The translations under genes and the position numbers were made by a program. A stretch of 64,000 nucleotides of DNA from Methanomassiliicoccales archaeon (GTDB lineage Archaea; Thermoplasmatota; Thermoplasmata; Methanomassiliicoccales; JAAEEP01). The DNA is taken from contig JAAEEP010000001.1 of assembly GCA_013415695.1 (NCBI GenBank), positions 1 to 64,000 of the forward strand. The letters are read 5' to 3'. The notes under the pieces are model-generated. The model did not search any database. It was not told the DNA's origin and worked only from the letters and a program-made list of their open reading frames with translations. Positions within the stretch are counted from its first letter, which is position 1. Each line of letters begins with the position of its first letter. Of the stretch, positions 2,090-62,957 are shown piece by piece.

Positions 2090-2100
2090 AGGATTGGGAA

Positions 2101-2113
2101 AAATCTTTTTCAT
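2101..2113 (+). terminator. T-run terminator after the integrase
   Basis: The bases AATCTTTTTCAT follow the integrase stop and resemble archaeal intrinsic T-tract termination signals. No stable hairpin is needed in archaea. Confidence 0.4.
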
Positions 2114-2186
2114 AATTTCTGAAAACGATCAAGTCATTGGCGTTGTAAACTGGAGGTAGCAACTGATCTTATCTCATTTTGAAACT

Positions 2187-2246
2187 AACTGTGAGAGAGA
2201 TGATACATAACAGTTTCAATCATCTCCCCACTGTATGTATTATATG
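2187..2246 (+). promoter_or_regulatory. radA promoter region with interleaved inverted repeats
   Basis: Two inverted repeats interlock: AACTGT at 2187-2192 pairs with ACAGTT at 2210-2215, and GAGATGAT at 2197-2204 pairs with ATCATCTC at 2219-2226. They lie directly upstream of a TATA-like TTATATG at 2240-2246. As DNA they could be protein-binding sites. As RNA they could only form a pseudoknot, but they lie upstream of the predicted transcript start. Confidence 0.35.
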
Positions 2247-2263
2247 GGTTTGGGAGATTTAGT

Positions 2264-3220: not shown

Positions 3221-3234
3221 GATCGATCGATACC

Positions 3235-31982: not shown

Positions 31983-34900
31983 ATGGAGGCTGAAGAGAAA
32001 GTTCGAACGAAGGATTTGGTGGGTAAAACCTGCGAGGAGAAGAGCTGTGATGAAGCGACCCAATCCGGATTGGCCATAGCCAAAGAGAAGGCCATAGAGA
32101 CGGCATGGGACAGATTCGAGGAGATGCTCCCTCAGTGTGGTTTTGGGGAGCTTGGTATTTGTTGCCGCAACTGCCTGCAGGGTCCTTGCAGAATAGACCC
32201 CTTCGGAGGAAAGCCAGATAAAGGTATCTGCGGGGCGAGGGATTACACCATCGTTGCCAGGAATGTCATAAGGATGATTGCGGGGGGTGCAGCCGCTCAC
32301 TCTGGTCACGGAAAGCACATAGCGGAGACCGTGGTCAAGATGCTGGAAGGAAGGGCACCAGCCTATAAGATCAAGGATGAGGAGAAGCTGATCAAGGTTG
32401 CCAAGAGGCTGGGAGTCGATACCGAAGGTAAGGATATCAACGATCTGGCATGGAAAGTGGTGGATCTTGCCCTTGAGGACTTTGGCCGGTACAAGCATGA
32501 GTACACCAAGTACACAATTTCAACTATCACAGAGGAAAGGATCAACCTTTGGAAGAGGTTGGGGGTAATGCCTGTGAATATTGAGCAGGCAATCAGCGAC
32601 GTCATGCACCGCACGACCATGGGTTGCGATGCGGATCCCGTCCCAGTGCTTTTCGGGGGGATAAGGTGTGCGATAGCCGACCTGACAGGCGAGCAAATCT
32701 CAACGGACCTTTCAGACATTCTGTTCGGTACTCCCAGATTGGTGAAGACCTATGCAAATCTCGGTTGTTTAGACGCCAAGAAGATCAACATAGCCATCCA
32801 TGGACACAACCCCGTTCTCAGCGATGTTCTCGTGGACGTCGCCAGAGAAATGGAAGATGAGGCAGTCAAATCTGGAGCCGAGGGGATCAACATAGTGGGG
32901 ATCTGCTGCACTGGTAACGAGACCTTGATGAGAAAGGGAGTCCCCATGGCCTCCAACTTCGCTTCCCAGGAGCTGGTCCTTGCCACTGGAGTCGTCGATC
33001 TTATCGTTGCGGATTATCAGTGCATCATGCCATCATTATCGGAAATATGCTCCTGCATGCCCACCAGCGTGGTTACCACCATGTCCAACGTTCGCCTCCC
33101 TTACGACACGCACGTCCAGTTCCGGGAGGAGGATGCGGAGGTCAGCGCAAAGGCCATCATTAGACAGGCGATTAAAGCCTTCAAGGGAAGGGATCACAAA
33201 CAGGTCAGCATACCGGATACAAAGAACGAGGTCATTGCCGGATTCAGCCTGGAGCAGATTGAAGAGCTATGCGGGAAATTCGATGAGGACGACCCACTGA
33301 TGCACATCGTGGGCAAGATTAAAGATGGTACGATCAGAGGCATATGCCTGATGGCAGGATGCAACAACCAGACCGTGCAGCATGACTTTAACCATATCAC
33401 AATCGCTGAGGAGCTTCTCAAGAACGATGTGTTGCTGATCGCCACCGGTTGTTCGGCCTCGGCATTCGCCAAGCGTGGACTGATGTCCTCTGATGCAACG
33501 GAAAGATACGCTGGTGAGGGGTTGAAATCCTTCATCAAGGAGCTTGGCGGGGCCAATGGAGTGGACCTTCCCCCAATCTGGCACATGGGATCCTGCGTTG
33601 ACAACAGCAGAGCAGCAAATTTCGCAACCCAGCTGGCAAAGAGGCTTGGGGTGGACGTCCACGAGATCCCCTTCTCAGCATCCGCTCCTGAGGCTAACCA
33701 CGAGAAGGCTGTGGCTATCGGTACATGGGCCGTGGCCATGGGATTGCCCGTTCATGTCGGGACCATCAATTACATCTACGGCTCATCGCTGGTCACCGAG
33801 GTTCTTGAGAACACCGCAAGGGATGTCTACGGAGGGTATTTCATCTTCGAGAGGAACCCCAAGAAAGCAGCGAAGAAGCTGCTCAACGTCCTCGAGTACA
33901 GAAGATGGATACTGGGCTTGGAGAACCACTACGTGAGGGAGACGAGACCCAAGATATCTCAGGAAAGGTTGTACGAGATGGCAATCGAGGGCGCCATCAT
34001 TGCCGCGGGATATGCAGACCAACTGCTTGGCACGGCCATCGAGAAGTACGGTTACGATCAGGTCATCGAATACCCGGCCACCGGGTACGAGCTTCCTTCA
34101 ATATATGCATGGGATGGAAGGGATGTTGGCACCCTGGGGGATCTGCCCGGAGCTCTAGGAGACGTTCGCAGCAAGGTGAAGAATGAGCCGTCATTCGAGA
34201 ATGCGCTCATTGCTGGTGAGGTCACCATGATCTCTGCCGAGATCGTCGAGGCGCTCAAGTATATCGAGTCTGCCAATCCCTACGAGGGAACGCCATATTG
34301 CGGCTTCGTACCTGATCGCGTTCTCAGGGAGCTGGGAATAGCCTTTGTGGATGATACAATCCCGGGAGCTGCCGTGCTGGTAGGGACTGCCGAGGACCCA
34401 AAGGAACTGGTGAAAGTAGTTAGGGATTGTCAAAACAAGGGAATGCTGATAATCGCGACCTTCGACATCATCAGGCAGCTGAGGGACGAGAATATCCAGA
34501 TGGGACTGGACATAATGCTTTACCCCGTTGGAGAGTTCACTCAGGCCATACACGGATTGAACTTCGCTATTAGGGCGGCACTATCCTTCGGCGGAGTGCA
34601 AAGAGGCGACAGAGAGAGGCTATATAAATACCTGTCAAAGAGGCCAAAGGTATTCGTGCTCCAGATGGGTCCCATGGACCACATCAAAGTTGCGGCGGAG
34701 TTCGCGGTGCTATTCAATGGTTCTCCCACTATCACCGACCAGGACATCGAGGAGATACCCGATAAGTTCGTGGTCGAAAAGGACTATGGGAAGCTCATCC
34801 AGAAGGCCATAGAGGTCAGAGACATTAAGGTCAAACTGTCCCCTGTTGACATTCCCGTAGCCTATGGACCTGCCTTCGAAGGCGAGACCGTTCGCCGACC

Positions 34901-36086
34901 CCAGACATATGTGGAGGCCGGAGGAGCGGCCAAGACATTGGCTTTCGAGCTGCTCAAGCTCCGCCCAGAAAGTGATGTGGAGGATGGACGAATCACCGTG
35001 ATTGGGAAGGATGTCGATGAGATGGAAGAGGGATCCTCTACTCCGCTAGGCATTTTCGTGGAAGTCTACGGAAAGAAGATGCAGGAGGATTTCGAGTCAG
35101 TACTCGAGAGAAGGATCCATCAGTTCATCAATTTCGGAGAGGGTTGCTGGCACACGGGCCAGCGTAATATACTCTGGATAAGATTGAGCAAGAGTTCGGT
35201 GGCAGCTGGACTGAGGTTCAAGCATTTTGGTGATATCCTTATCACAAAGATCAAGGAGGATTTCGGTAACATCGTCTCCAGGGTGCAGGTGACCATAATC
35301 ACCGAAGAGGAAGAGCTCAAGAAGAGACTCCCAGAGGCCTTGGAGACCTTCGAAGCTAGAGATGCCAGGATAGCGGGGCTTGTCGACGAATCGGTGGACA
35401 TATTCTACACTTGCACGCTTTGTCAGAGCTTCGCTCCAGATCACGTCTGTGTGGTGACCCCTGAGAGGTTAGGATTATGCGGAGCCATAAACTGGATGGA
35501 CGCCAAGGCCAGCAATGAGATCACTCCGACAGGGCCCAATCAGCCTATCATCAAGGGAGAGGTCATCGATGCGGAAAGGGGTCAGTGGAAGGGGGTCAAC
35601 GATGCAGTGTTCGAGTTCTCCCACCACAAGCTCTCGGTGTTCAACGCCTACACCATGATGGAAGAGCCCATGACCTCCTGTGGTTGTTTCGAGTGCATAG
35701 TGGGCATGACGGCCGATATGCAGGGAGTCATAATCGTCAATAGGGAGTTCCCCGGAATGACCCCCATCGGAATGAAGTTCTCCACCCTCGCAGGTTCTGT
35801 TGGTGGAGGCAAGCAGACCCCAGGATTCATAGGGGTTGGAAGGAAATATATTACGAGCAAGAAGTTCATACCCGCGGATGGAGGCTTCTTCAGGATAGCC
35901 TGGATGCCCAAGGAACTCAAGGAGTCCCTCTTGAACGAACTCAAGGCCAGGGCGGAGGAGCTGGGAGCCCCAGACTTCGTAGACAAGATCGCGGACGAGA
36001 CAATCTGTACGGATGCCGAGGGGCTCATGGAGTGGATGATGAAGGTAGATCACCCAGCACTCCAGATGCTTCCCCTCATCTCCTGA
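31983..36086 (+). CDS. acsA-acsB: fused CO dehydrogenase / acetyl-CoA synthase (single polypeptide)
   Basis: Residues 1-~645 are a CooS/AcsA-type Ni-CO dehydrogenase. D-cluster Cys52 and Cys60, and B-cluster Cys61, Cys64, Cys69 and Cys83 have exactly the known spacing; the C-cluster region includes HGHNP (273-277), VGICCTG and DYQCIMP (Cys347). Residues ~660-1367 are bacterial-length acetyl-CoA synthase, starting YEMAIEGAIIAAGYADQLL. A-cluster ligands Cys1144, Cys1147, Cys1156 and Cys1166 and the Cys1233-Gly-Cys1235 nickel site match Moorella AcsB spacing exactly. The protein would reduce CO2 to CO and condense it with a methyl group and CoA. No stop or frameshift separates the halves. The usual archaeal CdhA/CdhB/CdhC form is absent. 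Confidence 0.95.
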   Translation: MEAEEKVRTKDLVGKTCEEKSCDEATQSGLAIAKEKAIETAWDRFEEMLPQCGFGELGICCRNCLQGPCRIDPFGGKPDKGICGARDYTIVARNVIRMIAGGAAAHSGHGKHIAETVVKMLEGRAPAYKIKDEEKLIKVAKRLGVDTEGKDINDLAWKVVDLALEDFGRYKHEYTKYTISTITEERINLWKRLGVMPVNIEQAISDVMHRTTMGCDADPVPVLFGGIRCAIADLTGEQISTDLSDILFGTPRLVKTYANLGCLDAKKINIAIHGHNPVLSDVLVDVAREMEDEAVKSGAEGINIVGICCTGNETLMRKGVPMASNFASQELVLATGVVDLIVADYQCIMPSLSEICSCMPTSVVTTMSNVRLPYDTHVQFREEDAEVSAKAIIRQAIKAFKGRDHKQVSIPDTKNEVIAGFSLEQIEELCGKFDEDDPLMHIVGKIKDGTIRGICLMAGCNNQTVQHDFNHITIAEELLKNDVLLIATGCSASAFAKRGLMSSDATERYAGEGLKSFIKELGGANGVDLPPIWHMGSCVDNSRAANFATQLAKRLGVDVHEIPFSASAPEANHEKAVAIGTWAVAMGLPVHVGTINYIYGSSLVTEVLENTARDVYGGYFIFERNPKKAAKKLLNVLEYRRWILGLENHYVRETRPKISQERLYEMAIEGAIIAAGYADQLLGTAIEKYGYDQVIEYPATGYELPSIYAWDGRDVGTLGDLPGALGDVRSKVKNEPSFENALIAGEVTMISAEIVEALKYIESANPYEGTPYCGFVPDRVLRELGIAFVDDTIPGAAVLVGTAEDPKELVKVVRDCQNKGMLIIATFDIIRQLRDENIQMGLDIMLYPVGEFTQAIHGLNFAIRAALSFGGVQRGDRERLYKYLSKRPKVFVLQMGPMDHIKVAAEFAVLFNGSPTITDQDIEEIPDKFVVEKDYGKLIQKAIEVRDIKVKLSPVDIPVAYGPAFEGETVRRPQTYVEAGGAAKTLAFELLKLRPESDVEDGRITVIGKDVDEMEEGSSTPLGIFVEVYGKKMQEDFESVLERRIHQFINFGEGCWHTGQRNILWIRLSKSSVAAGLRFKHFGDILITKIKEDFGNIVSRVQVTIITEEEELKKRLPEALETFEARDARIAGLVDESVDIFYTCTLCQSFAPDHVCVVTPERLGLCGAINWMDAKASNEITPTGPNQPIIKGEVIDAERGQWKGVNDAVFEFSHHKLSVFNAYTMMEEPMTSCGCFECIVGMTADMQGVIIVNREFPGMTPIGMKFSTLAGSVGGGKQTPGFIGVGRKYITSKKFIPADGGFFRIAWMPKELKESLLNELKARAEELGAPDFVDKIADETICTDAEGLMEWMMKVDHPALQMLPLIS

Positions 36087-36107
36087 AAATCCTAAGGAGG
36101 ATAGTTG

Positions 36108-37061
36108 ATGGTAGTGCCCATACCCAAAGAGAAATGGTCAGGTAAAATCGGTGAGGTCAGGCTAGGCGCCACCGCCGAAGACGGAGGAAATAGGGAAAAG
36201 AACGCCATAGTGGGAGGGCAGACAGGGATGCCCTTCCTATCGTATGAGAATGAATATCCGAACCGCCCTGCTCTTGCAGGGGAGGTCGTCGACTCTCTCG
36301 AGCAATTCCCAGAGCTGGCGGTACAGGAGTTCGGAGATGCCGCGAAAGATCCAGTGGAGTGGGCAAAGAGATGGGTCGAGGAATACGGTGTGGACCTGAT
36401 CTGTCTTCGACTTATCTCTACGAACCCCGAGGAAGAAGATACTTCGTCGGAGGAGGCGGCTCAACTCGTCAAGAGGATGCTTGAATCAGTACCGGTTCCT
36501 CTAGTAATCTATGGATGCGGCCATGAGGAGAAGGACGCCAAGACCATGGAATTGGTGAGCAACATCGGTGCTGGAGAGAGGTTGCTGTTGGGGCACGCCG
36601 AGGAGGATGCTTACAAATCCATATCCGCTGCGAGCATGGCCAATGGACACTCTATCATTGGCTTCTCGAATCTTGACATCAATCTGGCAAAGCAAATCAA
36701 TATTCTACTCACTGATTTCGGCGTGAAGCTGGATGATATCGTAGCCGATCCATTGATGGCCGCACTGGGCATGGGTCTGGAGTATTCTTACTCCGTTAAT
36801 GAGAGGATCCGATTGGCAGCCCTCATGGGCGATAACATGCTTCAGATCCCGATGATATGCGACGCCTCAGTGGCTTGGGAGGCAAGGGAAGCCACGGACG
36901 ATAACCCAGCGTACGGGGATGTCAATGAAAGAGCGCTCTGGTGGGAGATCACCACTGGATTGGCAGCACTCATATCAGGCGCGGATATCCTCATATTGCG
37001 AAATCCAAGAGCGGTGGGGGTTATCAACGAACTGGTCGCCGATCTCATGGGAGGTGACTGA
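36108..37061 (+). CDS. acsD: corrinoid iron-sulfur protein small subunit
   Basis: This 317-residue TIM-barrel subunit caps the corrinoid of the large subunit in the methyl-carrying CFeSP. Supporting segments are the N-terminal KEKWSGKIGEVRLGAT, PLVIYGCGHEEKDAKTMELV, LGHAEEDAYKSISAASMANGH and the C-terminal WWEITTGLAALISGADILILRNPRAV. ATG 36108 follows AAGGAGGATAG and is preferred over TTG 36105. It comes 21 bases after the CODH/ACS gene in the same operon. Bacterial (AcsD) and archaeal (CdhD) versions are related. Confidence 0.93.
   Translation: MVVPIPKEKWSGKIGEVRLGATAEDGGNREKNAIVGGQTGMPFLSYENEYPNRPALAGEVVDSLEQFPELAVQEFGDAAKDPVEWAKRWVEEYGVDLICLRLISTNPEEEDTSSEEAAQLVKRMLESVPVPLVIYGCGHEEKDAKTMELVSNIGAGERLLLGHAEEDAYKSISAASMANGHSIIGFSNLDINLAKQINILLTDFGVKLDDIVADPLMAALGMGLEYSYSVNERIRLAALMGDNMLQIPMICDASVAWEAREATDDNPAYGDVNERALWWEITTGLAALISGADILILRNPRAVGVINELVADLMGGD
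37050..37057 (+). promoter_or_regulatory. full-length ribosome site fixing the TTG start of acsC
   Basis: GGAGGTGA, the complete complement of the 16S rRNA tail, lies inside the last codons of acsD and five bases before TTG 37063. An in-frame GTG at 37054 is within this site and therefore unlikely as a start. Confidence 0.65.
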
Positions 37062-37062
37062 A

Positions 37063-38388
37063 TTGCCGACGGCTATAGAGATATTCAAGCTGTTGCCCAA
37101 GACCAATTGTGGCGAATGTGGGTTCCCCACTTGCCTCGCCTTCGCCATGCAACTTGCAAACCAGAAGGTGAAGCTGGATGAATGCCCATATGTCTCAGAT
37201 AACGCCAAAGCTTCCCTGGAGGCATCGGCGGCCCCCCCTATCAGATTGATCAAGATCGGAACAGGGGATGGTACCGTAGAGATCGGGGACGAGACCGAGC
37301 TGTTCAGGCACGAGAAGAAGTTCTTCCACCCTGTGGCCTATGCGCTCTCGGTTTCAGACTCACTCTCCGAGGATGATGTCAAGGCCAAGGTCGAGAAGGC
37401 CAATGCTCTGCAGTTCGAGAGGGTTGGCCAGATGATGATCATGGACATGGTGGCAATCAGAAATGACTCCGGAGATGCGGCCAAATTCGCTTCGGCAGTG
37501 GAGATTGCCTCATCTGCGACAGAGAAGCCGCTAATTCTGCTCTCCAATGATGCTGGAGCCATGAGTGATGCCGCCTCGAAGGTGGCTTCCAGGAAGCCGT
37601 TGCTCCACTGCGCGACTCATGAGAACGCTGAGGATATGGCCGCGGTGGCCAAGGAACTTACATGCCCCCTTGTGGTGAAGAGTGAGAACGGTCTGGATGG
37701 CCTTGCAGATCTTGTAGTAACTGTCAAAGGCTGCGGTGTGGAGGACATGGTACTGGACTTTTCCCCCAAATCGCTGAAAGATCTGCTTGAGAAGAACACC
37801 ATCATCAGGAAGCACTCGGTCAAGAAGACGTTCAGAGGGTTGGGTTATCCCACGATGGTGGACACCTCAGGAAGCGATAAGGCACTGGCTATGGGGCTCA
37901 TCGCCACCATGAAGTATGGGAGCATCGTGGTCTTCGACGAGCTTGCTCCGGAGCATGCTCTACCTCTGTACGTACTGAGGCAGAATATATTCACGGATCC
38001 GCAAGTACCAATTCAGGTGAAGCCAGATATCTACCCCATAAACAACCCGGGTGAGGACGCCCCGCTGATGTTCACCACGAACTTCTCACTGACATACTTC
38101 ACTGTGATGGGCGACATAGAGAAGAGTAAGGTTCCAGTGTGGCTACAGGTCGTAGATACCGAAGGACTCTCGGTGATGACAGCCTTTGCGGCAGGCAAGC
38201 TCACTCCTGAGACCGTGGCTAAGGCATTGAGCGATTCGGACGCATATCAGAAATCCAAGAACGGAAAGATCATCATACCTGGAATGGTCACCAGAATGAG
38301 CGGGAAGCTTGAGGAGCTCACAGATCTCAAGGTGGTTGTTGGTCCGAGGGAGTCGAGCGGAATTCCCAAGCTGTTGAAATCGCTTTGA
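37063..38388 (+). CDS. acsC: corrinoid iron-sulfur protein large subunit
   Basis: This 441-residue large CFeSP subunit carries methylcobamide between AcsE and acetyl-CoA synthase. The N-terminal [4Fe-4S] domain has Cys16, Cys19, Cys24 and Cys41 (NCGECGFPTC...DEC). A TIM barrel follows, then a C-terminal corrinoid-binding region (LSVMTAFAAGKLTPETVAKAL). The TTG start is placed by a perfect GGAGGTGA site; an open extension to 36919 lies inside acsD and is an artefact. The stop is followed within seven bases by the converging cooC stop. Confidence 0.93.
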   Translation: MPTAIEIFKLLPKTNCGECGFPTCLAFAMQLANQKVKLDECPYVSDNAKASLEASAAPPIRLIKIGTGDGTVEIGDETELFRHEKKFFHPVAYALSVSDSLSEDDVKAKVEKANALQFERVGQMMIMDMVAIRNDSGDAAKFASAVEIASSATEKPLILLSNDAGAMSDAASKVASRKPLLHCATHENAEDMAAVAKELTCPLVVKSENGLDGLADLVVTVKGCGVEDMVLDFSPKSLKDLLEKNTIIRKHSVKKTFRGLGYPTMVDTSGSDKALAMGLIATMKYGSIVVFDELAPEHALPLYVLRQNIFTDPQVPIQVKPDIYPINNPGEDAPLMFTTNFSLTYFTVMGDIEKSKVPVWLQVVDTEGLSVMTAFAAGKLTPETVAKALSDSDAYQKSKNGKIIIPGMVTRMSGKLEELTDLKVVVGPRESSGIPKLLKSL

Positions 38389-38394
38389 TCCGGA

Positions 38395-39147
38395 TCAGCG
38401 AAGCAGCAGTGCGAGTTCCCTAACGGCTCGCAGAGCCTTGCTGGTGCTATCGAGTGAGGTGAGGGGCTCACCTACAATGGTGAGTTCCTCCACCTGCCTA
38501 TCGATAGGGATGTAGATAACATCACTGAAGCCCGCGGATCCGATGGCCTCCTTCAACGCCGGGGGGATATCCTTTGGAGCCCTGTTGACAATGAGGATAT
38601 TCTTCCTTATCTCAATGTCCATGTTGGATGCCAGATCCCTGAGTCTCGCCGCTGTTTCGATGCCGATCTTTGTTGCGTCAGAGATCAACACCAGGGCATC
38701 CATTCTCCTCGTCGTTCTCCGTGAGAGATGTTCCATTCCAGCCTCGTTGTCGATGACCACGAGGCTGTAATCCTCCATCAGCTCATCCATGAATGTCCGA
38801 AGGATATTGTTGATATAGCAGTAGCAGCCAGGACCCTCAGAACGGCCCATGGTCAGAAGGTCGAAGCTATCTCCTTCTTGAAGAGCAAGCCCAATGTGAT
38901 AGCGCACGTATTCCTGCTTGCTCATGCTGGCTGGAATCTCATCGGCGTTCTCCAACATCTTCTCGCGAAGGCCACCGATGGTGGTCCCAACATCTACCCC
39001 CAGCTTCTGTCCGAGGTTGGAATTAGGATCCGCATCCACCGCAAGGATCACCTCTCCAGAACGCTCATGGAGAACTCTCACCAACAAGGAAGATATGGTG
39101 GACTTTCCAACACCGCCCTTTCCCGCAATAGCGATGACGTAAGACAC
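38395..39147 (-). CDS. cooC: CooC/AcsF-type nickel-insertion ATPase (copy 2)
   Basis: The 250-residue P-loop ATPase has Walker A GKGGVGKS at residues 10-17, the Cys108-x-Cys110 metal pair (GPGCYCYINN) and DNEAGMEHLSRRTTRRMD, all CooC/AcsF features. It probably loads nickel into the CODH C-cluster or the ACS A-cluster. It is distinct in sequence from the CooC at 27731, so the fused enzyme may use one ATPase per active site. It overlaps the upstream methyltransferase gene by one base. Confidence 0.92.
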   Translation of the reverse strand: MSYVIAIAGKGGVGKSTISSLLVRVLHERSGEVILAVDADPNSNLGQKLGVDVGTTIGGLREKMLENADEIPASMSKQEYVRYHIGLALQEGDSFDLLTMGRSEGPGCYCYINNILRTFMDELMEDYSLVVIDNEAGMEHLSRRTTRRMDALVLISDATKIGIETAARLRDLASNMDIEIRKNILIVNRAPKDIPPALKEAIGSAGFSDVIYIPIDRQVEELTIVGEPLTSLDSTSKALRAVRELALLLR

Positions 39148-40664: not shown

Positions 40665-40850
40665 ATGCCGAGATGTCCATTCTGCAAGGAATTCTCATAC
40701 GGTGAAACCGGACCGTATATCTGCGGTTGTGGAGAGGCCCTCCCGGAGATGGTGTATAACTACCGGAGGGAGCGCTGTATCTGTGGAAAAACCGTCGAGT
40801 TCCAACCGATGGAGTTCAATCTCAACCAGATGTTTCCAGCATCTTTCTGA
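40665..40850 (+). CDS. small zinc-ribbon protein B (61 aa)
   Basis: The 61-residue paralogue of protein A starts MPRCPFCKEFSYG and carries ICGCGEALPEMVYNYRRERCICGK, so it keeps CxxC, CxC and an additional CxC where protein A has lost one Cys (CPFW). A TATA-like ATTATTTAATCG about 30 bases upstream suggests a near-leaderless transcript. Its last 29 bases overlap the converging AcsV-like gene. Confidence 0.65.
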   Translation: MPRCPFCKEFSYGETGPYICGCGEALPEMVYNYRRERCICGKTVEFQPMEFNLNQMFPASF

Positions 40851-42723
40851 CATTCGGAAACTTGCTGATGTCAGTGTGGGGAAGGAACAGCGAGGATGAG
40901 AACTCATCGAAGAAAGCTTGTGTCGTGCTCAGCTCGAAGTAGGTCATCCTCTCGTGTACCATGCTGGCTTCCCTCCTCTTCGTCTCTGAAAGAAGGGTAA
41001 GCCTGGCCCCAGCGAGGGCTCCATTACCCAGGAACACGAACTTGTCTTCTGGGAGATCGGGGAGCAATCCTATCACAGTTGCCTTCCCGATGTCCAAGTA
41101 ATTTCCAAACCCACCGGCCACGAAGACCTGGCTAAGATCCTCGAAGGCAAGATCAACGCTCTTGAGGAGAACGCTGGCTGCGGCATAGACCGCGGCCTTG
41201 GTTCGGATGATGTTCTGAATGTCGTTGTCGGTGATTATGATGTCTCCTCTTCTTCCATCTGGGCAATCCGGGCTTCCGCCGTCAACCGCGGTCTCTTCTG
41301 CCCAGGCCACCACGAACTCAGAGCCTTCATCCCCCATTCGAACTCGAGGATTGTTCAGGTCCTGTATGCGTCCCTTCTTGTCAACCACTCTGTTCTTGAA
41401 CATCTCAGCGATCAGGTCGATAAGCCCCGACCCGCAGATGCCGATAGGCTTTCCGCCTCCGATAGTGGTGTACTCAATTTCGCCTTGTTTGAGCTGAATG
41501 GAATCGATGGCTCCCATCATAGCTCTCATCCCATGAGCTACTTCTCCGCCTTCGAAAGCAGGCCCTGCGCTGCAGGAGCAGGCGACCATCCAATCTCTGT
41601 TTCCAAGAACGATCTCACCATTAGTACCCACGTCTATGAGCAAAGAGGTCTCCAGTGAAGTATGAAGTTCAGAAGCCAGAACGTCAGCTATTATGTCCCC
41701 TCCCACATAACTAGCCCTTCCGGGTACGAAGTAAACTGGGGCTTGAGGGAGTATCTCGATTCCAACATCGCCAGCTCGCAAGATCGGTGGAAGGTTGGTC
41801 AAAGGTACGTAGGGATCGTAGCGGATTCCTCGAGGGTCCAAACCAAGGAGTAGGTGGATCATTGTGGTATTCCCCGCCACAGAAATTGAGGAAATATCGT
41901 CCCCGGTCAGGTTGCATTCTTCTCGAGCTTTGATATCAACCTGGATCTTACTTATGAGTGCGTTTATTGTGTCCAGCACAAGGCGTTGGGGCCTTTCCAC
42001 ACTGCGATCTTCGCAGAAAGCGATTCGAGAAAGCACGTCCTCTCCGCAGACGATCTGCTTGTTGTAATCTGACGCCTGAGACAGAACCTCGCCATTGCGC
42101 ATATCGATCAGAGCTGCCACGACTGTGGTGGTTCCTACGTCCACCGCAAGACCAAGTTCTCTCAGGCACTCACCGGGTCTGATGTCAATGAGATTGTGCT
42201 CCCCTTCTAGAACAACGGAGACATTCCAATCGGAGGACCTTATCACGTCTGGCAGCTTTCTCAGTACCTTCAGCTGGGCATCCAGTTCTCCATGGGCCAG
42301 CCCTAAAGATCGCTCGATTCTCTCCAGATCTCCAAGGTTGTCATCGAGAGTCGGACGAGGCAGATCTAGGTACTTCCAGCTCACTAGAGGAGAGAGGTCT
42401 GAAAGCTCGGCCACATGGAATGTTGTAAGAATCTTATGCTCCCCTACCTGGGCTTCATGGGGTACGAACACTATCAGATCACTCCTCACCTTGCTCTGGC
42501 AGGCGAGGCGGTAGCCGTTCTCCCAATCAAGGGGATTGATTAAGGAGGTGTCAGGGGAATCCACCGCTCCTTCAACGATGACCCGACATCTGCCACACTT
42601 TCCCTCGCCTCCGCAGACTGCGTTTATTGAAACCCCAGCCTTAACGGCCGAATCTAGCAATGTGGTCCCCTCCTCTACCTCGACCGTGGAGTTCTTGGGG
42701 AAGAAAGTAACTGAGTATAACAT
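40822..42723 (-). CDS. acsV: reductive activator of corrinoid proteins (AcsV/RamA-like)
   Basis: The 633-residue protein starts with a plant-type [2Fe-2S] domain (Cys37, Cys43, Cys46, Cys75; CGGEGKCGRC). A linker and an ASKHA-fold ATPase (DUF4445) follow, with AVDVGTTTVVAALID near residue 185, SVAGNTTMIHLLLG, LLIDVGTNGEIVLG and VFVAGGFGNYLDI. Such proteins use ATP to restore the Co(I) state of inactive corrinoid proteins. The corrinoid Fe-S protein encoded 2.5-4 kb away is the obvious client. Unlike RamA it lacks C-terminal ferredoxin clusters, agreeing with AcsV-type activators. Confidence 0.9.
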   Translation of the reverse strand: MLYSVTFFPKNSTVEVEEGTTLLDSAVKAGVSINAVCGGEGKCGRCRVIVEGAVDSPDTSLINPLDWENGYRLACQSKVRSDLIVFVPHEAQVGEHKILTTFHVAELSDLSPLVSWKYLDLPRPTLDDNLGDLERIERSLGLAHGELDAQLKVLRKLPDVIRSSDWNVSVVLEGEHNLIDIRPGECLRELGLAVDVGTTTVVAALIDMRNGEVLSQASDYNKQIVCGEDVLSRIAFCEDRSVERPQRLVLDTINALISKIQVDIKAREECNLTGDDISSISVAGNTTMIHLLLGLDPRGIRYDPYVPLTNLPPILRAGDVGIEILPQAPVYFVPGRASYVGGDIIADVLASELHTSLETSLLIDVGTNGEIVLGNRDWMVACSCSAGPAFEGGEVAHGMRAMMGAIDSIQLKQGEIEYTTIGGGKPIGICGSGLIDLIAEMFKNRVVDKKGRIQDLNNPRVRMGDEGSEFVVAWAEETAVDGGSPDCPDGRRGDIIITDNDIQNIIRTKAAVYAAASVLLKSVDLAFEDLSQVFVAGGFGNYLDIGKATVIGLLPDLPEDKFVFLGNGALAGARLTLLSETKRREASMVHERMTYFELSTTQAFFDEFSSSLFLPHTDISKFPNVRKMLETSG

Positions 42724-43038: not shown

Positions 43039-44262
43039 GTGAAGGTGCTCCTGGTAGGATACAATGGTGCCAATAACACTGGTTCAGAAGCAAGACTCCT
43101 TGAGATAATCAAGGATGTGCAGGAAATCATGGGTCAAGATGTTCACATCACGGTCCCCACCCTGAACGAGGTGAACCTGAGAAGGTACTTGGAGGAAAAA
43201 CCCGGCCTCAGTATCGAACCAGTGTCTCCAATTTACTTCTTCGATCTAAGAAGATTGGTCAAAGAGAATGATCTCATCATGCTGGTTGAGGGTAGCTGTT
43301 ACATGGATACCTGGACATCTGTCTTGCTATGGGCATTCCTCTCAGCGTCCAAGTATGCCCACTCGTACGGAAAACCCTCGATGGCATATGCAGTTGATGC
43401 CGGAGAGTTATCAAAGGGAAACGAGAAAAGGGTAAAGAGGGATGCTAGCAAGACCTCGATGATAATAACCCGAACCAATGCGGCCGCACAGAGATTGCGG
43501 GATTGGGGGGTTACGGCCCCCATCGAGGCGACGGCCGATACTGCATTCTCTTTTCTTGTCGACGAGACCCCAAAGGATTATATCCCCTCGATCTGGCCGG
43601 AGGGAGAGACCGGAGCTGTAGGCATGTCCGTGGTTAATTTCTATCTCTGGCCAGTGGTGCTAAGACCGTACGGAAGGCGCCGTTTATGCTATCGCTGGCC
43701 GTATTACTACTCATACTCAAGAAAAAGACAGGAATCCACTGAAGCGCTGGCCAAAGGTTTCGCCAAGGAGGCAGACAGGGTCGTGGAGAGGTACGACAAA
43801 TCGATAGCGCTAATAGCCATGGAGGCTCTGGACGAGCCACTGGCATTGGATGTTCATCGAAAAATGAAGAACCCAAAGCGGGCAAGGGTGTTCTCCTCTA
43901 ACGGGTATGATTCATCAGAAATGACCTTTCTCCTCCGCAACCTCGACATGCTCATAACCTCCAGGTATCACGCGAGCGTGCTCTCATTGGCTTCCGGCGT
44001 TCCTCAGATCGCGGTTGGGCACGACCTAAGACTTTGGGACCTTTTCGGAGATCTGGGCATAAGGGAAAAGAGGTTTATTGGGAAGGATTCACCCAATCTC
44101 TGGCAATGGGTTTCAGAGAACGTTGATCATCTGATCTCCGACCCAGAAGAGGATGTCAGGGTTCTCCTATCTGGGAACAGGGAGCACCTGGAGAGGGCTA
44201 GAAAGAACAAGGAATTGCTCAGGGAATTCGCCATGAAGCATGGAATGGCGGTAAAATCATGA
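43039..44262 (+). CDS. polysaccharide pyruvyl transferase family protein
   Basis: The 407-residue protein has the GT-B-like pattern of the CsaB/WcaK family: YNGANNTGSEARLLEIIKDV at the N-terminus and SSEMTFLLRNLDMLITSRYHASVLSLASGVPQIAVGHD toward the end. Members add ketal-linked pyruvate to cell-envelope sugars. GTG 43039 follows GGAGGG at 43025-43030. Its stop overlaps the next start as ATGA, so it is the first of four coupled genes. A lone pyruvyl transferase with lipid-type enzymes is unusual. Confidence 0.8.
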   Translation: MKVLLVGYNGANNTGSEARLLEIIKDVQEIMGQDVHITVPTLNEVNLRRYLEEKPGLSIEPVSPIYFFDLRRLVKENDLIMLVEGSCYMDTWTSVLLWAFLSASKYAHSYGKPSMAYAVDAGELSKGNEKRVKRDASKTSMIITRTNAAAQRLRDWGVTAPIEATADTAFSFLVDETPKDYIPSIWPEGETGAVGMSVVNFYLWPVVLRPYGRRRLCYRWPYYYSYSRKRQESTEALAKGFAKEADRVVERYDKSIALIAMEALDEPLALDVHRKMKNPKRARVFSSNGYDSSEMTFLLRNLDMLITSRYHASVLSLASGVPQIAVGHDLRLWDLFGDLGIREKRFIGKDSPNLWQWVSENVDHLISDPEEDVRVLLSGNREHLERARKNKELLREFAMKHGMAVKS

Positions 44263-52281: not shown

Positions 52282-53067
52282 ATGCTTATCGTGAGCGAGA
52301 GGATTAACGGGCAGTTCGCCTCGGTGGGCCAGGCCATTGATCGAAGGGATGCGAAGATAATACAGGACCTTGCCCTCAAGCAGGTTGAGTGCGGGGCAAA
52401 CTACCTCGACATCAACACGGGTCCTGGGAGGGACGATGCACCAGCCTGCATGGAATGGCTGGTGAAGACGGTCCAAGAGGTGGTGGACACACCTCTCTGC
52501 CTCGATTCCCCCGGTCCAAAGACAATGGAAGCTGGCCTCAAGGCCTGCGAGGGAAAGCCCATCATGAACAGCACCACTGCTGAAGTGAAGAAGATGGAGA
52601 GATTCTTCCCCCTGGCGGTTGAGTACGATGCTGATATTGTCTGTCTTACAATCAGTGAGAAGGGCATACCGAATGATTCTGACTCCAGGACCGAGCTGGC
52701 AATGCTGTTGATGACCACCGCAATGGAATATGGAGTGATGCCGGAGAAGATATTCCTCGATCCAGTCATACTACCGGTAGGCGCTGCTCAGGATCAGGGC
52801 AAGGTCGTCATCAGATCCATCCAGCAATTCCAGATTCTAAACGACCCCGCCCCCAGGACCATTGTGGGATTAAGCAACATCTCAAATATGGCGAAGGAGA
52901 GAAGTCTTCTCAACCGGAGCTTCCTTGCCATGCTTATGGGGACCGGATTGACTGCAGCCATAATGGACCCAGAGGACCGGGAACTGATGAAAATAGTCAA
53001 GGCGGGAGAGATCCTGCTGAATGAGAAGCTATACTGCGACGATTTCCTGATGAATCTGAGGGATTGA
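52282..53067 (+). CDS. acsE: methyl-THF:corrinoid iron-sulfur protein methyltransferase
   Basis: The 261-residue TIM-barrel protein of the pterin-binding family moves the methyl group of 5-methyl-THF to Co(I) of the corrinoid Fe-S protein. It has [12 protein letters not shown], the pterin-binding [26 protein letters not shown] and the asparagine motif [21 protein letters not shown], and length equal to Moorella AcsE. The archaeal counterpart MtrH uses tetrahydromethanopterin and is different in sequence, so this supports THF use. It is followed by a DUF6485 gene. Confidence 0.93.
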
Positions 53068-53277: not shown

Positions 53278-54195
53278 TTACAACACGGGTCTGGGAAGCA
53301 GTCCCGCCCTTTCCACAATCTCCGGTAGCTTCTTCTCCCAAGCCACGGGCATGATGTGTACGCCGTGTACCCCCTCGATGGTCAGAAGATGATGTATCTG
53401 CTCCACACAGATACTTATGCCCTCCTCCTTGGGATCCTCGGCGCCCTTCATCCGATCGATCAGCTGGTCAGGGACGATCATTCCTGAGACTTTATTCTTC
53501 ATGTAACGGGCAGCTCCCAGGGATTTCAGTGGGACCACTCCGGCCATGATGTGCACCTCTTCATGAAGCCCCCTGGACCTTGCCTCCTTCATATAGCGCT
53601 CGAACCGTTCCATATCAAATATGGCTTGAGTCTGTATGAAGTCAGCACCGGCCTTGACCTTCTTTGCGAGCCTGGTCACTCGGAATTCGAAAGGATCGGC
53701 AAAGGGATTGGCGGCGGCCCCTAGATACACCCTTGGAGCCTCTTTGATATCGGTATCGCCCCAGACCTTTGATTCATCCCTCATCCTTCTAAGCATCATC
53801 AATTGTTGGATTGAGTCCAGATCGTAAACGTTCTTTGATTCCGCCTGATTCCCGAATGTCTGATGATCCCCACTCAAACACAGCAGGTTTCGAACACCCA
53901 GTGCCGAAGCGCCCAATAGATCTGATTGCATGGCAATTCTATTGCGATCTCTGCATGTCATCTGCATAATGGGTTCCACACCTTCCTGAAGGCAGATCAC
54001 GGATGATGCGAGAGAGCTCATTCGAACGATTGCGGTCTGGTTGTCAGTCAGATTAAAGGCATCGGCGAATCCCTTCAGGTGTCGGGCGTGCTCCTGAATG
54101 GAAGACGGGTTGCTGGACATGGGGGGGCCTATCTCTCCAGTCACCACGAACTCCCCTTTGTCGAAGAGCCTCTCGATGTTGCTTCCCGCCTTCAT
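53278..54195 (-). CDS. metF: methylenetetrahydrofolate reductase, catalytic subunit
   Basis: The 305-residue FAD-containing TIM barrel reduces 5,10-methylene-THF to 5-methyl-THF. It has VTGEIGPPMSSNPSSIQEHA near the start, the flavin/folate region LLCLSGDHQTFGN and GADFIQTQAIFDMERFERYM. It overlaps the metV stop as ATGA and ends an operon with metV, mvhD and two HdrA-like genes, the setting known for the MetFV complexes of acetogens. Confidence 0.93.
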   Translation of the reverse strand: MKAGSNIERLFDKGEFVVTGEIGPPMSSNPSSIQEHARHLKGFADAFNLTDNQTAIVRMSSLASSVICLQEGVEPIMQMTCRDRNRIAMQSDLLGASALGVRNLLCLSGDHQTFGNQAESKNVYDLDSIQQLMMLRRMRDESKVWGDTDIKEAPRVYLGAAANPFADPFEFRVTRLAKKVKAGADFIQTQAIFDMERFERYMKEARSRGLHEEVHIMAGVVPLKSLGAARYMKNKVSGMIVPDQLIDRMKGAEDPKEEGISICVEQIHHLLTIEGVHGVHIMPVAWEKKLPEIVERAGLLPRPVL

Positions 54196-54896
54196 TCCAG
54201 ACCCTCCTTCGCCCGCTTCTCATCTTCCGTAAGTAGAGCGTCCTCCCTCATGATCCGCCTTGGACCGCCGCTGCGACTGGGTATCCAGCTCTTGGGCGGT
54301 ATGACATCCTCCATTAGCTTCAAACGATCCAGCCTCTTCAGGCTCTGATAAATCTGATCCCAGGCACAGGGTGTATCGGGATCCACCTCGCATCGGCCCT
54401 CTTGAGAACCTCCGCAAGGTCCATTCAGAAGGCTCTTGGCACATCTGGCAATGGGGCACACCCCGCCCGTGAGATGCAGGACACAGTCACCACAACCGCC
54501 GCATTTCTCGTTCCAGAGACCCTGTTCCTCTGGAGCTCCCATATTCGATGTGTTCAGCCCGGGAACGACCCTGGTATCCGGAAAGAGTTCCTGGACCGTC
54601 TGAGCGCCCACACCGCAGGCGAGTGAAAGAACGCAGTCCACTTCAGCAACAAGGGGTGCTATCTCCCTTACCCATTCCTTCTCGCACTGTCTCTCCAGGG
54701 TGACCTCGCCCACGGTCCAATTCAGCCCCTCGAGATCGGAGTGGATGCGGAGCGCCTCGCTCAGCACGCCGACTTCTTTCTCCCCTCCTGCCAGACAGAT
54801 TGCCACGCAGGACCTGCAGCCAGCGACCAGTATTGAGCCATGTCCAGATAGGTTGTCCATTATCTCCTTCAGAGTCTTCTGTTCACCGATTATCAT
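54192..54896 (-). CDS. metV: methylenetetrahydrofolate reductase zinc/Fe-S subunit MetV
   Basis: The 234-residue MetV-type subunit has an N-terminal CRSCVAICLAGGEKEV and a C-terminal Cys-rich CGGCGDCVLHLTGGVCPIARCAKSLLNGPCGG that binds clusters or zinc and links MetF to its electron donor. ATG 54896 follows GGTGAGAT and is preferred over GTG 54905. Overlaps with mvhD upstream and metF downstream argue for one complex. Confidence 0.9.
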   Translation of the reverse strand: MIIGEQKTLKEIMDNLSGHGSILVAGCRSCVAICLAGGEKEVGVLSEALRIHSDLEGLNWTVGEVTLERQCEKEWVREIAPLVAEVDCVLSLACGVGAQTVQELFPDTRVVPGLNTSNMGAPEEQGLWNEKCGGCGDCVLHLTGGVCPIARCAKSLLNGPCGGSQEGRCEVDPDTPCAWDQIYQSLKRLDRLKLMEDVIPPKSWIPSRSGGPRRIMREDALLTEDEKRAKEGLE

Positions 54897-55305
54897 TGAT
54901 CTCACCTTTCAGAGGGTTTGGTCCTAGTTCATTCACGCGTGCCGTCATCTCCTCCACGATGCGGGGGAATCGCCATCCTTGGTTTGAGGCGATGTTGAAC
55001 ATCTCAACCCTTCGTCCTTCAAGACCAAGAGCATCAAGAATATCCTTTGCCTGCTTCACCCGCTTGCGAGCCTCGTGGTTGCCGTTCACGAAGTTGCAGT
55101 TTCCCTCGAGGCATCCTGCCACGAAAACCGCGTCGGCTCCCTGTCTGAATGCTCTCAATATGTGCAGGACGTCGATCCTGCCTGAGCAGGGCAACCTTAT
55201 GATCATCACTTGCGGCGAATAGCTTCTCCCTTGTCTTCCTGCTAGATCGGCCGAGGCATAGCCACAGTAGGAGCAGCAGAAGCCGACTATCCTGGCTTCT
55301 ATCAC
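54883..55305 (-). CDS. mvhD: MvhD/HdrD-like iron-sulfur electron-transfer subunit
   Basis: The 140-residue protein is of the methyl-viologen-hydrogenase delta-subunit family. It has GFCCSYCGYASAD and MIIRLPCSGRIDVLHILRAFRQGADAVFVAGCLEGNCNF, whose cysteines bind a [2Fe-2S] cluster. MvhD joins HdrA to partner enzymes; here the partner is MetFV. It overlaps the HdrA-like gene and metV. Confidence 0.92.
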   Translation of the reverse strand: MIEARIVGFCCSYCGYASADLAGRQGRSYSPQVMIIRLPCSGRIDVLHILRAFRQGADAVFVAGCLEGNCNFVNGNHEARKRVKQAKDILDALGLEGRRVEMFNIASNQGWRFPRIVEEMTARVNELGPNPLKGEINDNR

Positions 55306-57008
55306 CTTATCGCCCCCCCAGCCAGCACCTTTGTCTGGGAGGATAGTTGATCATCGGTGAAGCAGAAGAGCTGAATGGCCTTGCTGGGGCAAATGGCTAC
55401 GCAGATTCCGCATCCTTGGCACTTGGGAACATCCACCTCTGCCTTGCCCGATTCGCCAATGAACGGGGCCGTATAAGGGCAGCTCCTGACGCAAGTAAGG
55501 CAGGCTGAGCATTTCTCTGGATCGATATCTGCTACTTCCCCCCCTCTCTGGATCCAATTGGACAACATGGCCACCGCACGGGACGCGGCGCTCCTGGCTT
55601 CAAGAACAACCTCCGATGGGAGCTTGTTGGAGATGCCCGAGCCACAAAGGAAGACCCCTTCCCTTATGCTGGCAGCCGGCTTCAGCTTGACCTGGGTGGG
55701 GATGAAGAACCCCTCTTGGTCAACGGGAGTACCGAACACCTTGGCTATCCTCGGAGTGGCCAATGGCCGGGTCACGGTATTGACGACTACCACATCCGCC
55801 TCCAGCGAGATTTTATCACCAAGATGCATGTCGTACACGGTGACCTTGCCAGGTCTATCTGGATCTACAAGTGGTTGATCATCTGTCCTGACGAACCTTA
55901 CCCCCGCGGCCTGAGCTTTGATATAATCCAATTCCAAGAATCCAAAGGCAAGGATATCCCTTGCGATGATGGTGATCTCCGCTTCTGGCATGGCTTCCTT
56001 GATCTTTAAGGCGTTCTGGATGGCCTCTTTGTGAGTTATCCTTCCGGAGCTGGGTTTCTTGCCCTCATCCAAGGTGATCATTATGGTTCTCTCCGGGATG
56101 ACACCTCGGTCCAAGAAGGTCTCTAGATCCCCCTGTGTGATCAATACATACCCGTTGACGATCGATGGAGGCTCCTCGTTGGCCTCCCACGCAATTATCG
56201 CCGCACCAAAGGAGATCTCCTCCATACCCTCAGGAGATCTGATTAGGGCACGGAATTCGCCAGGACTGCCCTGAAAAGCCTCTACTGATGCCTGAGGGTG
56301 AATGTTAACTAGTTGGCTTTCAAGGATCTTGTTCCTCATATCCTCCAGGCGGAATGGGTTGATCCCGTGGTAATTGAATGTGAGCCTCTCTGGTGGAAAG
56401 GGTGAGATGAAATGGATCCTGATACCCTCAGATATCAATTCGTCCGTCGCGACTATCGCGGACATGCCGTTTCCATACACCAATATCTCTTTACTCGGCG
56501 CCTTGATCCTCTCGTAAGGCGCTGGCACAAGGAGCGAACACTTGGCCACCGCTGCCTCGACCAGTTTGGCGGCTTTTTCTGTGGCCTCATCGTATCCATG
56601 TACCAAAGAGCATTGCTCCCTGATGTTGGCAATCTCCACCATATAGGGATTTATCCCCGCCCCCATGGCGATCGCCCTGAAGTGGTCCTCGACGACCTTG
56701 GGGCTGCAACCCGCGATGACGAACCTGTCAAGGTCCGCCTCGATGATCGTTCTTGAAATCGATTCATGACCTTCCCTTGAACACGAGAATTTCAGCGTCT
56801 GGCATTTTTCCACGGATGCAAGGCTGGATGTTCTTTTCTCGATCGATTCGATATCCAGCCTTCCTTGTATGGATCCTCCGCAGTGGCAGAGGAACACTCC
56901 CATCCTCCCTGTGGGCTCCTTCTCCTTCTTGGAGCGAGCCGATCTTGTCCTGGCCGATCTCCCGCTGCTAGACAATGTCACCAGCTCAAGGCTCGAATTG
57001 GAGGTCAT
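55302..57008 (-). CDS. hdrA: HdrA-like flavoprotein/ferredoxin (second subunit)
   Basis: The 568-residue protein begins with the HdrA N-terminal cluster domain (MGVFLCHCGGSIQG; FVIAGCSPK). A Rossmann FAD-type domain follows, with altered dinucleotide loop VYGNGMSAIVA and the end LCGSGISNKLPSEVVLEARSAASRA. Two C-terminal [4Fe-4S] sets come last (CSACLTCVRSCPY; CQGCGICVAICPS). ATG 57008 follows GGAGGGATTGAA and overlaps the previous stop as ATGA. The altered glycine loop suggests that its flavin site may be degenerate. Confidence 0.85.
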   Translation of the reverse strand: MTSNSSLELVTLSSSGRSARTRSARSKKEKEPTGRMGVFLCHCGGSIQGRLDIESIEKRTSSLASVEKCQTLKFSCSREGHESISRTIIEADLDRFVIAGCSPKVVEDHFRAIAMGAGINPYMVEIANIREQCSLVHGYDEATEKAAKLVEAAVAKCSLLVPAPYERIKAPSKEILVYGNGMSAIVATDELISEGIRIHFISPFPPERLTFNYHGINPFRLEDMRNKILESQLVNIHPQASVEAFQGSPGEFRALIRSPEGMEEISFGAAIIAWEANEEPPSIVNGYVLITQGDLETFLDRGVIPERTIMITLDEGKKPSSGRITHKEAIQNALKIKEAMPEAEITIIARDILAFGFLELDYIKAQAAGVRFVRTDDQPLVDPDRPGKVTVYDMHLGDKISLEADVVVVNTVTRPLATPRIAKVFGTPVDQEGFFIPTQVKLKPAASIREGVFLCGSGISNKLPSEVVLEARSAASRAVAMLSNWIQRGGEVADIDPEKCSACLTCVRSCPYTAPFIGESGKAEVDVPKCQGCGICVAICPSKAIQLFCFTDDQLSSQTKVLAGGAIR

Positions 57009-59989: not shown

Positions 59990-61747
59990 TTAGAAGAGCC
60001 CCGTTATGTTGCCATTCTCATCGATGTCGATGTTCATGAAGGCGGGCTTTGTAGCTAGTCCAGGCATTGTGCTCATCTTGCCCAGCAAGGGATAGATGAA
60101 TCCCGCTCCCACACTGGCCCGCACCTCTCTTATGGGCACGGTGAATCCCTTGGGCACTCCCTTCAGGTCAGGGTCATGACTTAGGCTTAGATGGGTCTTG
60201 GCCATGCACATGGGAAGTTTCCCGAACCCTGCCTTCTCGTAGGCGGAAATCTGCTTCTCGGCGAGCGGTTCGTAAGTCACCCCATCCGCCCCGTAGATCT
60301 CCGTGACTATGGTCTCTATCTTCTCCTTGATGGACAGATCCAATGGATACAGGAATTCGAAGTTGGAGGGCTTCTCGCACGCTTCGACCACTTTCTCCGC
60401 AAGGGCTCTAGCGCCCTTCCCCCCATCGGCCCAATGGGAGCTCTTAACAGCGTCCTCAGCCCCTTGTGATTGGGCGTATTTCCTGACCAGTTCCAGTTCT
60501 GCGTCGGTATCCGTCGCGAAGGCGTTGACTGCCACGACCACGGGAACGCCGAACTTCAGCGCATTGCGAATGTGGACTCCAAGGTTGCCCAGTCCCTTCT
60601 CCAGGAGATCCAGGTCCTCCTCGATATAGGCCTTGTCCAGGGGCATTCCTGGTTTGACCTGTGGACCGCCTCCGTGCATCTTCAATGCCCTCACGGTCGC
60701 AACCAGAACCACGCAGTTGGGAATGAGTCCAGAGTAGCGACACTTGATGTCAAAGAACTTCTCCATGCCGATGTCAGCACCGAACCCGCTCTCGGTGACG
60801 ACGTAGTCACCCATCTTAAGCGCGATCTGGTCGGCAACGATGCTGCTGTTTCCATGTGCAATATTTGCGAATGGTCCAGCGTGAACGAAGGCTGGCTGTC
60901 CCTCCAGTGTCTGCATGAGGTTGGGCTTTATTGCATCTCTCAGTAGAACGGTCACCGCTCCGGCAACACCGATCCTCTCCAAGTTCACTGGATTGCCCTG
61001 CTTGTCCATTCCGATGACCACCCTGCCGATGCGCTGCCTCATGTCCTGAAGGCCAGTGGTAAGGGCTAGGATGGCCATTAGCTCACTGGCCACGGAGATG
61101 TCGAATCCGGTCTTCCTTGGGAAGACAGGGCTTGGCGAGCCGTCCTTGAGCTTGTCATCATTGAAGCCGACCTTGATCTCCCTTAGGCTTCGATCACAGA
61201 CATCGACCACCCTGTTCCAAGTGATGGTGTCGACATCGATGTCTATGCGGTCCAATCCCCTCTTCTTGAGCTGCTCATCGGTCTGCCGGCTCTCATGAAA
61301 GAGTCGGGTGTCGATTGCAGCTGCAACAAGATTATGAGCCACGGTAATGGCGTGTATGTCGCCGGTCAGGTGGAGATTGAAGTCCTCCATTGATATTACC
61401 TGGCTGTATCCTCCTCCAGCGGCGCCTCCTTTGATATTGAAGGTTGGACCCATGCTGGGCTGCCTTATGCATAAGATCACATTCTTGCCCAGTTCGCTGC
61501 CCATGGCCTGCACCAGCCCGCAGGCTGTGGTGGTCTTCCCTTCGCCGAGCGGCGTGGGGGTGATCGCCGTAACGTCAATGTACTTGCCTTGAGGCCTGTC
61601 AGAGAATTTCTTCAGGACCTCCAGGGGCACCTTGGCCTTGTACCTCCCATAGTACTCCAGATCGTCCTCGGTCAGTCCTATCTTCTCAGCAATCTCAATT
61701 ATTGGTCTAAGGTCCGCCTCTTGGGCTATCTCGAGATCCGATTTCAT
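59990..61747 (-). CDS. fhs: formate-tetrahydrofolate ligase
   Basis: The 585-residue enzyme makes 10-formyl-THF from formate, THF and ATP, the entry step of the methyl branch. It has the ATP loop [12 protein letters not shown] at residues 64-75, [24 protein letters not shown] and the [16 protein letters not shown] region, with normal family length. It is essentially a bacterial-pathway enzyme in an archaeal setting. Its promoter lies in the divergent gap with folD. Confidence 0.97.
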
Positions 61748-62072
61748 TGAAACCCCTTACCTGTTTGGACTCGACGAAAATGGACCTGCCAACCGGCCCG
61801 AGAGAATTGGTACCGGCTTTGGCCGCATCTTCAAATGGAATAACCTTTTCGTCCGTCCCTTGAGGGTGTTTAGAATACCCCGACCTATAAAATCATTATG
61901 CAATACAAATGCCACTCTGAATGCTGGAAAAAACGAAAAACATCCTCACAGCATCGAAGTCATTATTCTTAGTTACGAACCCTATCGATTTCCGCTTTAA
62001 ATGGGTGAGAATACACCGATATCGGCAAAGGGTTAATAAAGGCGTGTTAATTATTGGCAATCTGGTGAATTG
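61748..62072. promoter_or_regulatory. divergent fhs-folD promoter region
   Basis: About 325 bases without a gene. On the plus strand TTAATAAA at about 62032-62039 is a good TATA box for folD. On the minus strand TTTTATAG (complement of 61886-61893) could serve fhs, leaving a leader of about 110 bases. I see no shared palindrome or RNA fold. Confidence 0.5.
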
Positions 62073-62957
62073 ATGGTTGCGGAAATCATCAGTGGAAAGG
62101 ATGTTTCCAGTGAGATCAAAGAGGAACTCAAGGGGCGAATAGCCTCTCTCAAGGAAAAAGGAGTCACCCCGGGACTAGTCGTGATCCTGGTAGGTGAGGA
62201 TCCAGCTTCCCAGGTCTATGTGAGGATGAAGGGAAAGGCCTGTGAGGAGTTGGGCCTGTACTCAGACACCAAGCGGTTCCCGGAGGATCTGCCCGAGGAT
62301 GAACTTCTAAAGCTCATTGACGAGTTGAACGAGGACCCAAGGGTACATGGAATCCTAGTGCAGCTTCCCCTTCCAAAGCATATCGACGAGAACAAGGTTC
62401 TTTTGAGGATCAAACCTGAGAAGGATGTGGACGGTTTCCATCCGGTGAATGTTGGAAAGATGCTCATAGGCGAGCCAGGCTTCCTTCCATGCACGCCCCA
62501 TGGTGTGCAGGAACTTCTTACGCGAAGCGGGAATGATCCTGAGGGAAAACATGTGGTCATCGTGGGAAGAAGCAACATAGTTGGCAAGCCGGTTGCAGCC
62601 ATTCTCATGCAGAAGAAGAAGGGAGCCAACGCTACCATCACTGTATGCCACTCCCGGACCAAGGACCTGCCAGCCATGTGCAGGCAGGCTGATATCCTGA
62701 TTGCGGCCATGGGAGTTCCAAAGTTCATAAAGGAGAATATGGTCAAGGAAGGCGCAGTCGTCATCGATGTCGGCGTGAACCGTGTCGATGACCCTGAGGC
62801 AAAGAGGGGTTATCGACTTGTGGGTGACGTGGACTTCGAGCCCGTGGCAGCGAAGGCTTCTGCCATCACTCCTGTTCCAGGGGGTGTCGGTCCAATGACC
62901 ATCGTGATGCTGATGATGAACACCATCATCTCAGCGGAGAACACTCTATCAGCCTGA
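62073..62957 (+). CDS. folD: methylene-THF dehydrogenase / methenyl-THF cyclohydrolase
   Basis: The 294-residue bifunctional enzyme converts 10-formyl-THF to 5,10-methylene-THF with NAD(P)H. It has the Lys-containing [14 protein letters not shown], the [10 protein letters not shown] motif, [14 protein letters not shown] and [11 protein letters not shown] for the nucleotide, and ends with [17 protein letters not shown] 62073 is preferred over TTG 62070. It is followed by a formate transporter gene, and together with Fhs and MetFV completes the THF methyl branch. Confidence 0.96.

Follow-up and report, generated by a model that had tools for sequence, protein, structure and literature searches.

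CODH/ACS, one of the most ancient enzymes of carbon fixation, is the textbook case of a gas channelled from one subunit to another, and the locus described here raises the question whether an archaeon makes both halves of it as one working chain. In the 64,000 nucleotides analysed (the window), a single open reading frame of 1367 codons runs from ATG to stop without an internal stop, and it stays in frame through the junction of the carbon monoxide dehydrogenase (CODH) and acetyl-CoA synthase (ACS) halves (about residues 647-667). Taken as a whole, the best explanation, and one that we regard as highly probable, is a functional, tunnelled single-chain CODH/ACS which was fused within Thermoplasmatota and whose CODH half later decayed in several Methanomassiliicoccales. 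The gene and its parts are:

31983..36086, + strand: fused CODH-ACS gene, 1367 aa (open reading frame and translation; both halves above cut-off in NCBIfam and Pfam)
32043..33920, + strand: CODH half, residues 21-646, with D-, B- and C-cluster ligands, His106 and Lys575 (TIGR01702; residue-by-residue alignment to CooSII)
33921..33983, + strand: junction or linker, residues 647-667, ENHYVRETRPKISQERLYEMA (gap between the model matches; alignment with fused and separate relatives)
33984..36080, + strand: ACS half, residues 668-1366, with A-cluster Cys1144/1147/1156/1166/1233/1235 and the tunnel positions Ala752, Ala862 and Ala905 (NF040764)

The sequence-only reading had described a single 1367-residue frame of CODH and ACS. 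This was confirmed, as both halves passed curated NCBIfam models: TIGR01702 (CODH catalytic subunit, CooS type) matched residues 21-646 with 703 bits against a cut-off of 478, and NF040764 (bacterial-type ACS alpha/beta) matched residues 668-1365 with 965 bits against 800. The Pfam domains followed in the order Prismane (59-627), CODH_A_N (681-761), CdhC (957-1111) and ACS_CODH_B_C (1123-1366). A stop or frameshift near residues 645-660, for which that reading had allowed, was absent from the window gene and was seen only in relatives with naturally separate genes. A PDB search returned no chain spanning both halves; each chain matched one half or the other. The B-, D- and A-cluster cysteines lay where they had been expected. 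In the alignment to CooSII of Carboxydothermus hydrogenoformans, the reference for the CODH ligands, Cys52/60/61/64/69/83 aligned with D/B-cluster Cys39/47/48/51/56/70, and the C-cluster (His275, Cys309/347/460/490/538) and the acid-base residues His106 and Lys575, which the earlier list did not include, were present as well. The CODH half therefore held 14 of 14 tested cluster and catalytic residues and the ACS half 6 of 6 A-cluster cysteines. Of four pairs compared for the intact CODH half, two were saturated; the other two, for which dS was finite, gave a low dN/dS of 0.05-0.08.

The two enzymes had been taken to be normally separate; here they are fused, and the host is an archaeon with bacterial-type enzymes, not those of the archaeal CdhA/CdhC type. 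Its genome (Methanomassiliicoccales) carries mcrA and gave no PF02552 match for CdhB, and the window holds AcsC/D/E/V together with H4folate genes. The host is therefore a methanogenic archaeon with an essentially bacterial H4folate Wood-Ljungdahl gene set, which comprises:

36105..37061, + strand: AcsD/CdhD, corrinoid iron-sulfur protein small subunit, 18 bp 3' of the fused gene (NF003376, 363 bits, cut-off 280)
36919..38388, + strand: AcsC/CdhE, corrinoid iron-sulfur protein large subunit, true start probably near 37069 (NF003195, 557 bits, cut-off 306)
38395..39147, - strand: CooC/MinD-like ATPase, probable nickel-insertion factor, a role suggested by its position (AAA_31, CbiA)
40822..42723, - strand: AcsV/RACo corrinoid reactivation protein (three RACo Pfam domains; NF040756, 613 bits, below the cut-off of 800)
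52282..53067, + strand: AcsE, methyl-H4folate:corrinoid/iron-sulfur protein methyltransferase (NF005719, 307 bits, cut-off 259)
53278..54195, - strand: MetF-like methylene-H4folate reductase (NF006396 match, 9e-65, below cut-off)
54192..54905, - strand: MetV-like protein, methylene-H4folate reductase C-terminal domain, DUF5981 (PF12225, 123 bits)
59990..61747, - strand: formate-H4folate ligase, FTHFS (NF010031, 807 bits, cut-off 800; PF01268)
62070..62957, + strand: FolD, methylene-H4folate dehydrogenase/cyclohydrolase (NF010783, 357 bits, cut-off 333)

Two overlapping HdrA-like frames (55302-57155 and 57005-58369) occupy 55302-58369 on the - strand and are possibly a frameshifted gene or two HdrA copies. 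A VhuD/MvhD-like frame (54883-55305) adjoins them and the MetV-like and MetF genes, forming a MetFV-Hdr-Mvh-like cluster. Elsewhere in the window, 44259-46985 (+ strand) encodes a 908-aa protein with thioester-reductase and AMP-binding domains, which resembles part of a carboxylic acid reductase.

Within Thermoplasmatota the fusion has a wide distribution. Our survey of the window's phylum drew on two overlapping samples, one of 400 genomes from the class and one of 293 from the phylum, and an intact fused frame of 1362-1446 aa was found in 23 genomes, the window's included, from eight families; several of these genomes are single contigs. The protein search for other single-chain CODH/ACS proposed earlier thus yielded 22 further independent genomes with the same in-frame junction, at roughly 58-78% overall identity. 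The named relatives are Methanomassiliicoccales MAGs, and public MAGs with the fusion include Methanomassiliicoccales PtaU1.Bin124. Every tested ligand was kept in the 23 intact fusions, save for Lys575, which is Arg in L008. In families f19, f23 and f56, acsA and acsB are separate and overlap by ATGA or nearly so, and in one genome (G419) a single TGA separates the two frames, which are in register. A neighbouring, translationally coupled acsA-acsB pair within Thermoplasmatota is the most likely source of the fusion. The linkers of fused forms in f20/f58/f63 (e.g. DDPERIYWDGTTPQDER) resemble the CODH tail of separate forms (EDKETIYWSGETKEDVF...), which is consistent with fusion via loss of the CODH end. 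Repeated fusion from the overlapping pair is possible, though we lean away from it: linker length varies between the clades of fused forms, and the trees place some separate-gene lineages between fused ones, so that fission or repeated fusion may have occurred; however, a tree with all fused forms together was not rejected (p-AU 0.37), which leaves room for a single origin. Large inserts in two relatives were considered as duplications and rejected, since they are inteins. One (L069, G419:C36, ORF 1400-4069, - strand) has a mini-intein of ~135-155 aa in ACS, where it separates PMTS from CGCFE right at the A-cluster Cys-Gly-Cys, with an Intein_splicing domain above cut-off. The other (L085, G028:C3, ORF 1408-5010, - strand) has a ~500-aa intein with a LAGLIDADG_3 domain at the ACS A-cluster Cys equivalent to window Cys1147, and its ACS frame also breaks further downstream.

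What is new here is that other Methanomassiliicoccales carry degenerate CODH halves attached to an intact ACS. In G045 the fusion is full-length, but its CODH half lacks all six B/D cysteines and, in the C-cluster, the His and two of the Cys; G060, of the same genus, additionally lacks residues about 256-415. In genus g3 and family f4, ACS proteins of ~1000 aa bear an N-terminal extension of 200-300 residues ending in a recognisable CODH tail (in g3, RDLFGG...ERRRWxxGLPHRY). The g3 remnant matched CODH in hhalign with an E of 4e-9 and the reversed control was negative; a junction-spanning query (residues 604-723) run against 147 genomes of the order also matched most g3 remnant genomes, at 29-38% identity. 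For the f2/g21 extensions the profile comparison was weak (E 0.01, control 0.21), so that motifs and position are what suggest a CODH remnant in g21 (family f2). The dN/dS of the degenerate CODH part was 0.22-0.28, indicating selection that appears relaxed yet still constraining. Other relatives have ACS alone, without a fused CODH part; both these lone forms and the remnant forms nest among fused Methanomassiliicoccales in the ACS tree. An intact fusion and a lone ACS occur within one genus in g11 (G054 and G015) and g20 (G051 and G042), pointing to recent loss or gene transfer. A separate CooS (38-43% identity), its active sites mostly complete, was present in many but not all of the decayed genomes. 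No CODH match was found in the lone-ACS genomes G015, G005, G009, G031, G001 and G059, where the fate of CO may be tied to acetyl-CoA cleavage.

The decay series, which provides natural tunnel variants, also bears on the CO tunnel. We take window Ala752, Ala862 and Ala905 to correspond to Ala110, Ala222 and Ala265 of Moorella ACS, which the Lindahl laboratory reportedly mutated to Cys, Leu and Met to block CO flow. Ala occupied these positions in 23/23, 23/23 and 22/23 of the fused forms and in 9/9 adjacent-gene forms each, whereas it was kept in only 5/13, 5/13 and 1/13 of the remnant-bearing ACSs. There the replacements were mostly Cys/Val/Leu (752), Val/Leu/Ile (862) and Leu/Met (905); some of these proteins have Leu or Met where the engineered Moorella substitutions are said to block CO flow. 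Of 173 otherwise conserved columns, the three positions fell within the twelve that were kept least often, with a chance of ~3 in 10,000 if columns are treated as independent draws and shared ancestry is ignored. Alanine in the fused and adjacent forms and bulkier residues in the remnants support a tunnel that is functional in the fusion and was closed once the CODH half had decayed. This pattern is our best evidence that the fusion would use a tunnel; an AlphaFold2 model of residues 16-1116 built with 11 sequences was of low confidence (pLDDT 65, pTM 0.47), too poor for a tunnel to be seen.

It is unlikely that the continuous frame yields two proteins, whether through a second translation start near Met666 or through cleavage of the linker by a protease. 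A AGGAAAGG stretch does lie 5' of the in-frame ATG of residue 666; however, this residue is Lys in L046, L037, L038 and L007, so there is no conserved internal start. In addition, the linkers vary in length and sequence without an obvious common cleavage motif, and the degenerate CODH halves remain in frame and under some constraint. That the CODH half is a structural pseudoenzyme beside a working ACS holds for the related L009, a full-length fused form which has lost its B, D and half of its C-cluster ligands. For the window protein we rejected this as very improbable, given its complete residue set and a genome in which the fused gene was the sole match to the query at E 1e-3, no second CODH being found. 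A merging of adjacent genes by sequencing or assembly error (a stop lost or a frame shifted) is scarcely credible, even for a 41-contig assembly, and was rejected because independent genomes carry the same junction, 22 others in frame (several single-contig), and because, within the order, the 120-residue junction query was matched over its whole length in the genomes with an intact fusion.

For the functional single-chain enzyme we propose that the N-terminal Ni-Fe CODH half would convert CO2 to CO, or the reverse, and that CO would reach the A-cluster by an internal tunnel; the attached ACS half would then join it to CoA and to a methyl group supplied by the neighbouring corrinoid protein (AcsC/AcsD). 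The fused chain probably works as a homodimer, with an architecture like the bacterial alpha2beta2 CODH/ACS. A fixed 1:1 stoichiometry had been put forward as a gain from the covalent joint; it is no new property, because the bacterial complex, being alpha2beta2, is already 1:1. In several Methanomassiliicoccales the CODH half would later have been stripped of its clusters and worn down, with ACS persisting, and the ACS of these decayed forms presumably exchanges CO with the solution because its tunnel is no longer preserved. We further suggest, tentatively and as something that may well prove otherwise, that fusion opened an evolutionary route which is not known for separate subunits: a joined CODH half can lose its activity where it stands and persist as a structural cap, and ACS closes its tunnel and uses free CO, which may come from a separate CooS or from release in acetyl-CoA cleavage. 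If this is true, Thermoplasmatota hold a natural series from a channelled to a non-channelled acetyl-CoA synthase. The single-chain form also makes tunnel mechanics and assembly testable from one gene.

None of the open-access papers searched describes the fusion, in line with the earlier remark that none had been seen, although it may have been noticed elsewhere. Methanomassiliicoccales 'MALP', in which an H4folate pathway with ACS/CODH was reported (Speth and Orphan 2018, PMC6147122), belongs to the same order as the window host, and the text of that paper does not mention a fusion. The archaeal acetyl-CoA decarbonylase/synthase (CdhABCDE, Methanosarcina) performs the same reaction, also in methanogens; however, its CdhA model TIGR00314 matched the window protein weakly (56 bits, cut-off 781) and CdhB is absent. 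Archaeal CdhC is without the N-terminal ACS domain, whereas the bacterial-type window ACS has it (CODH_A_N). The bacterial CODH/ACS (AcsA/AcsB; Moorella thermoacetica 1OAO/1MJG, Carboxydothermus hydrogenoformans 7ZKJ) shares with the fusion both halves, the ligands, the A-cluster spacing, the Ala at the tunnel positions and the accompanying AcsC/D/E/V, but consists of two genes and two chains, against one gene and one chain in an archaeal host. Dehalococcoides mccartyi, which we understand to have ACS without a CODH gene, parallels the relatives that keep ACS without a fused CODH; in contrast, these relatives descend from fused forms according to the ACS tree, and some retain an attached CODH remnant.
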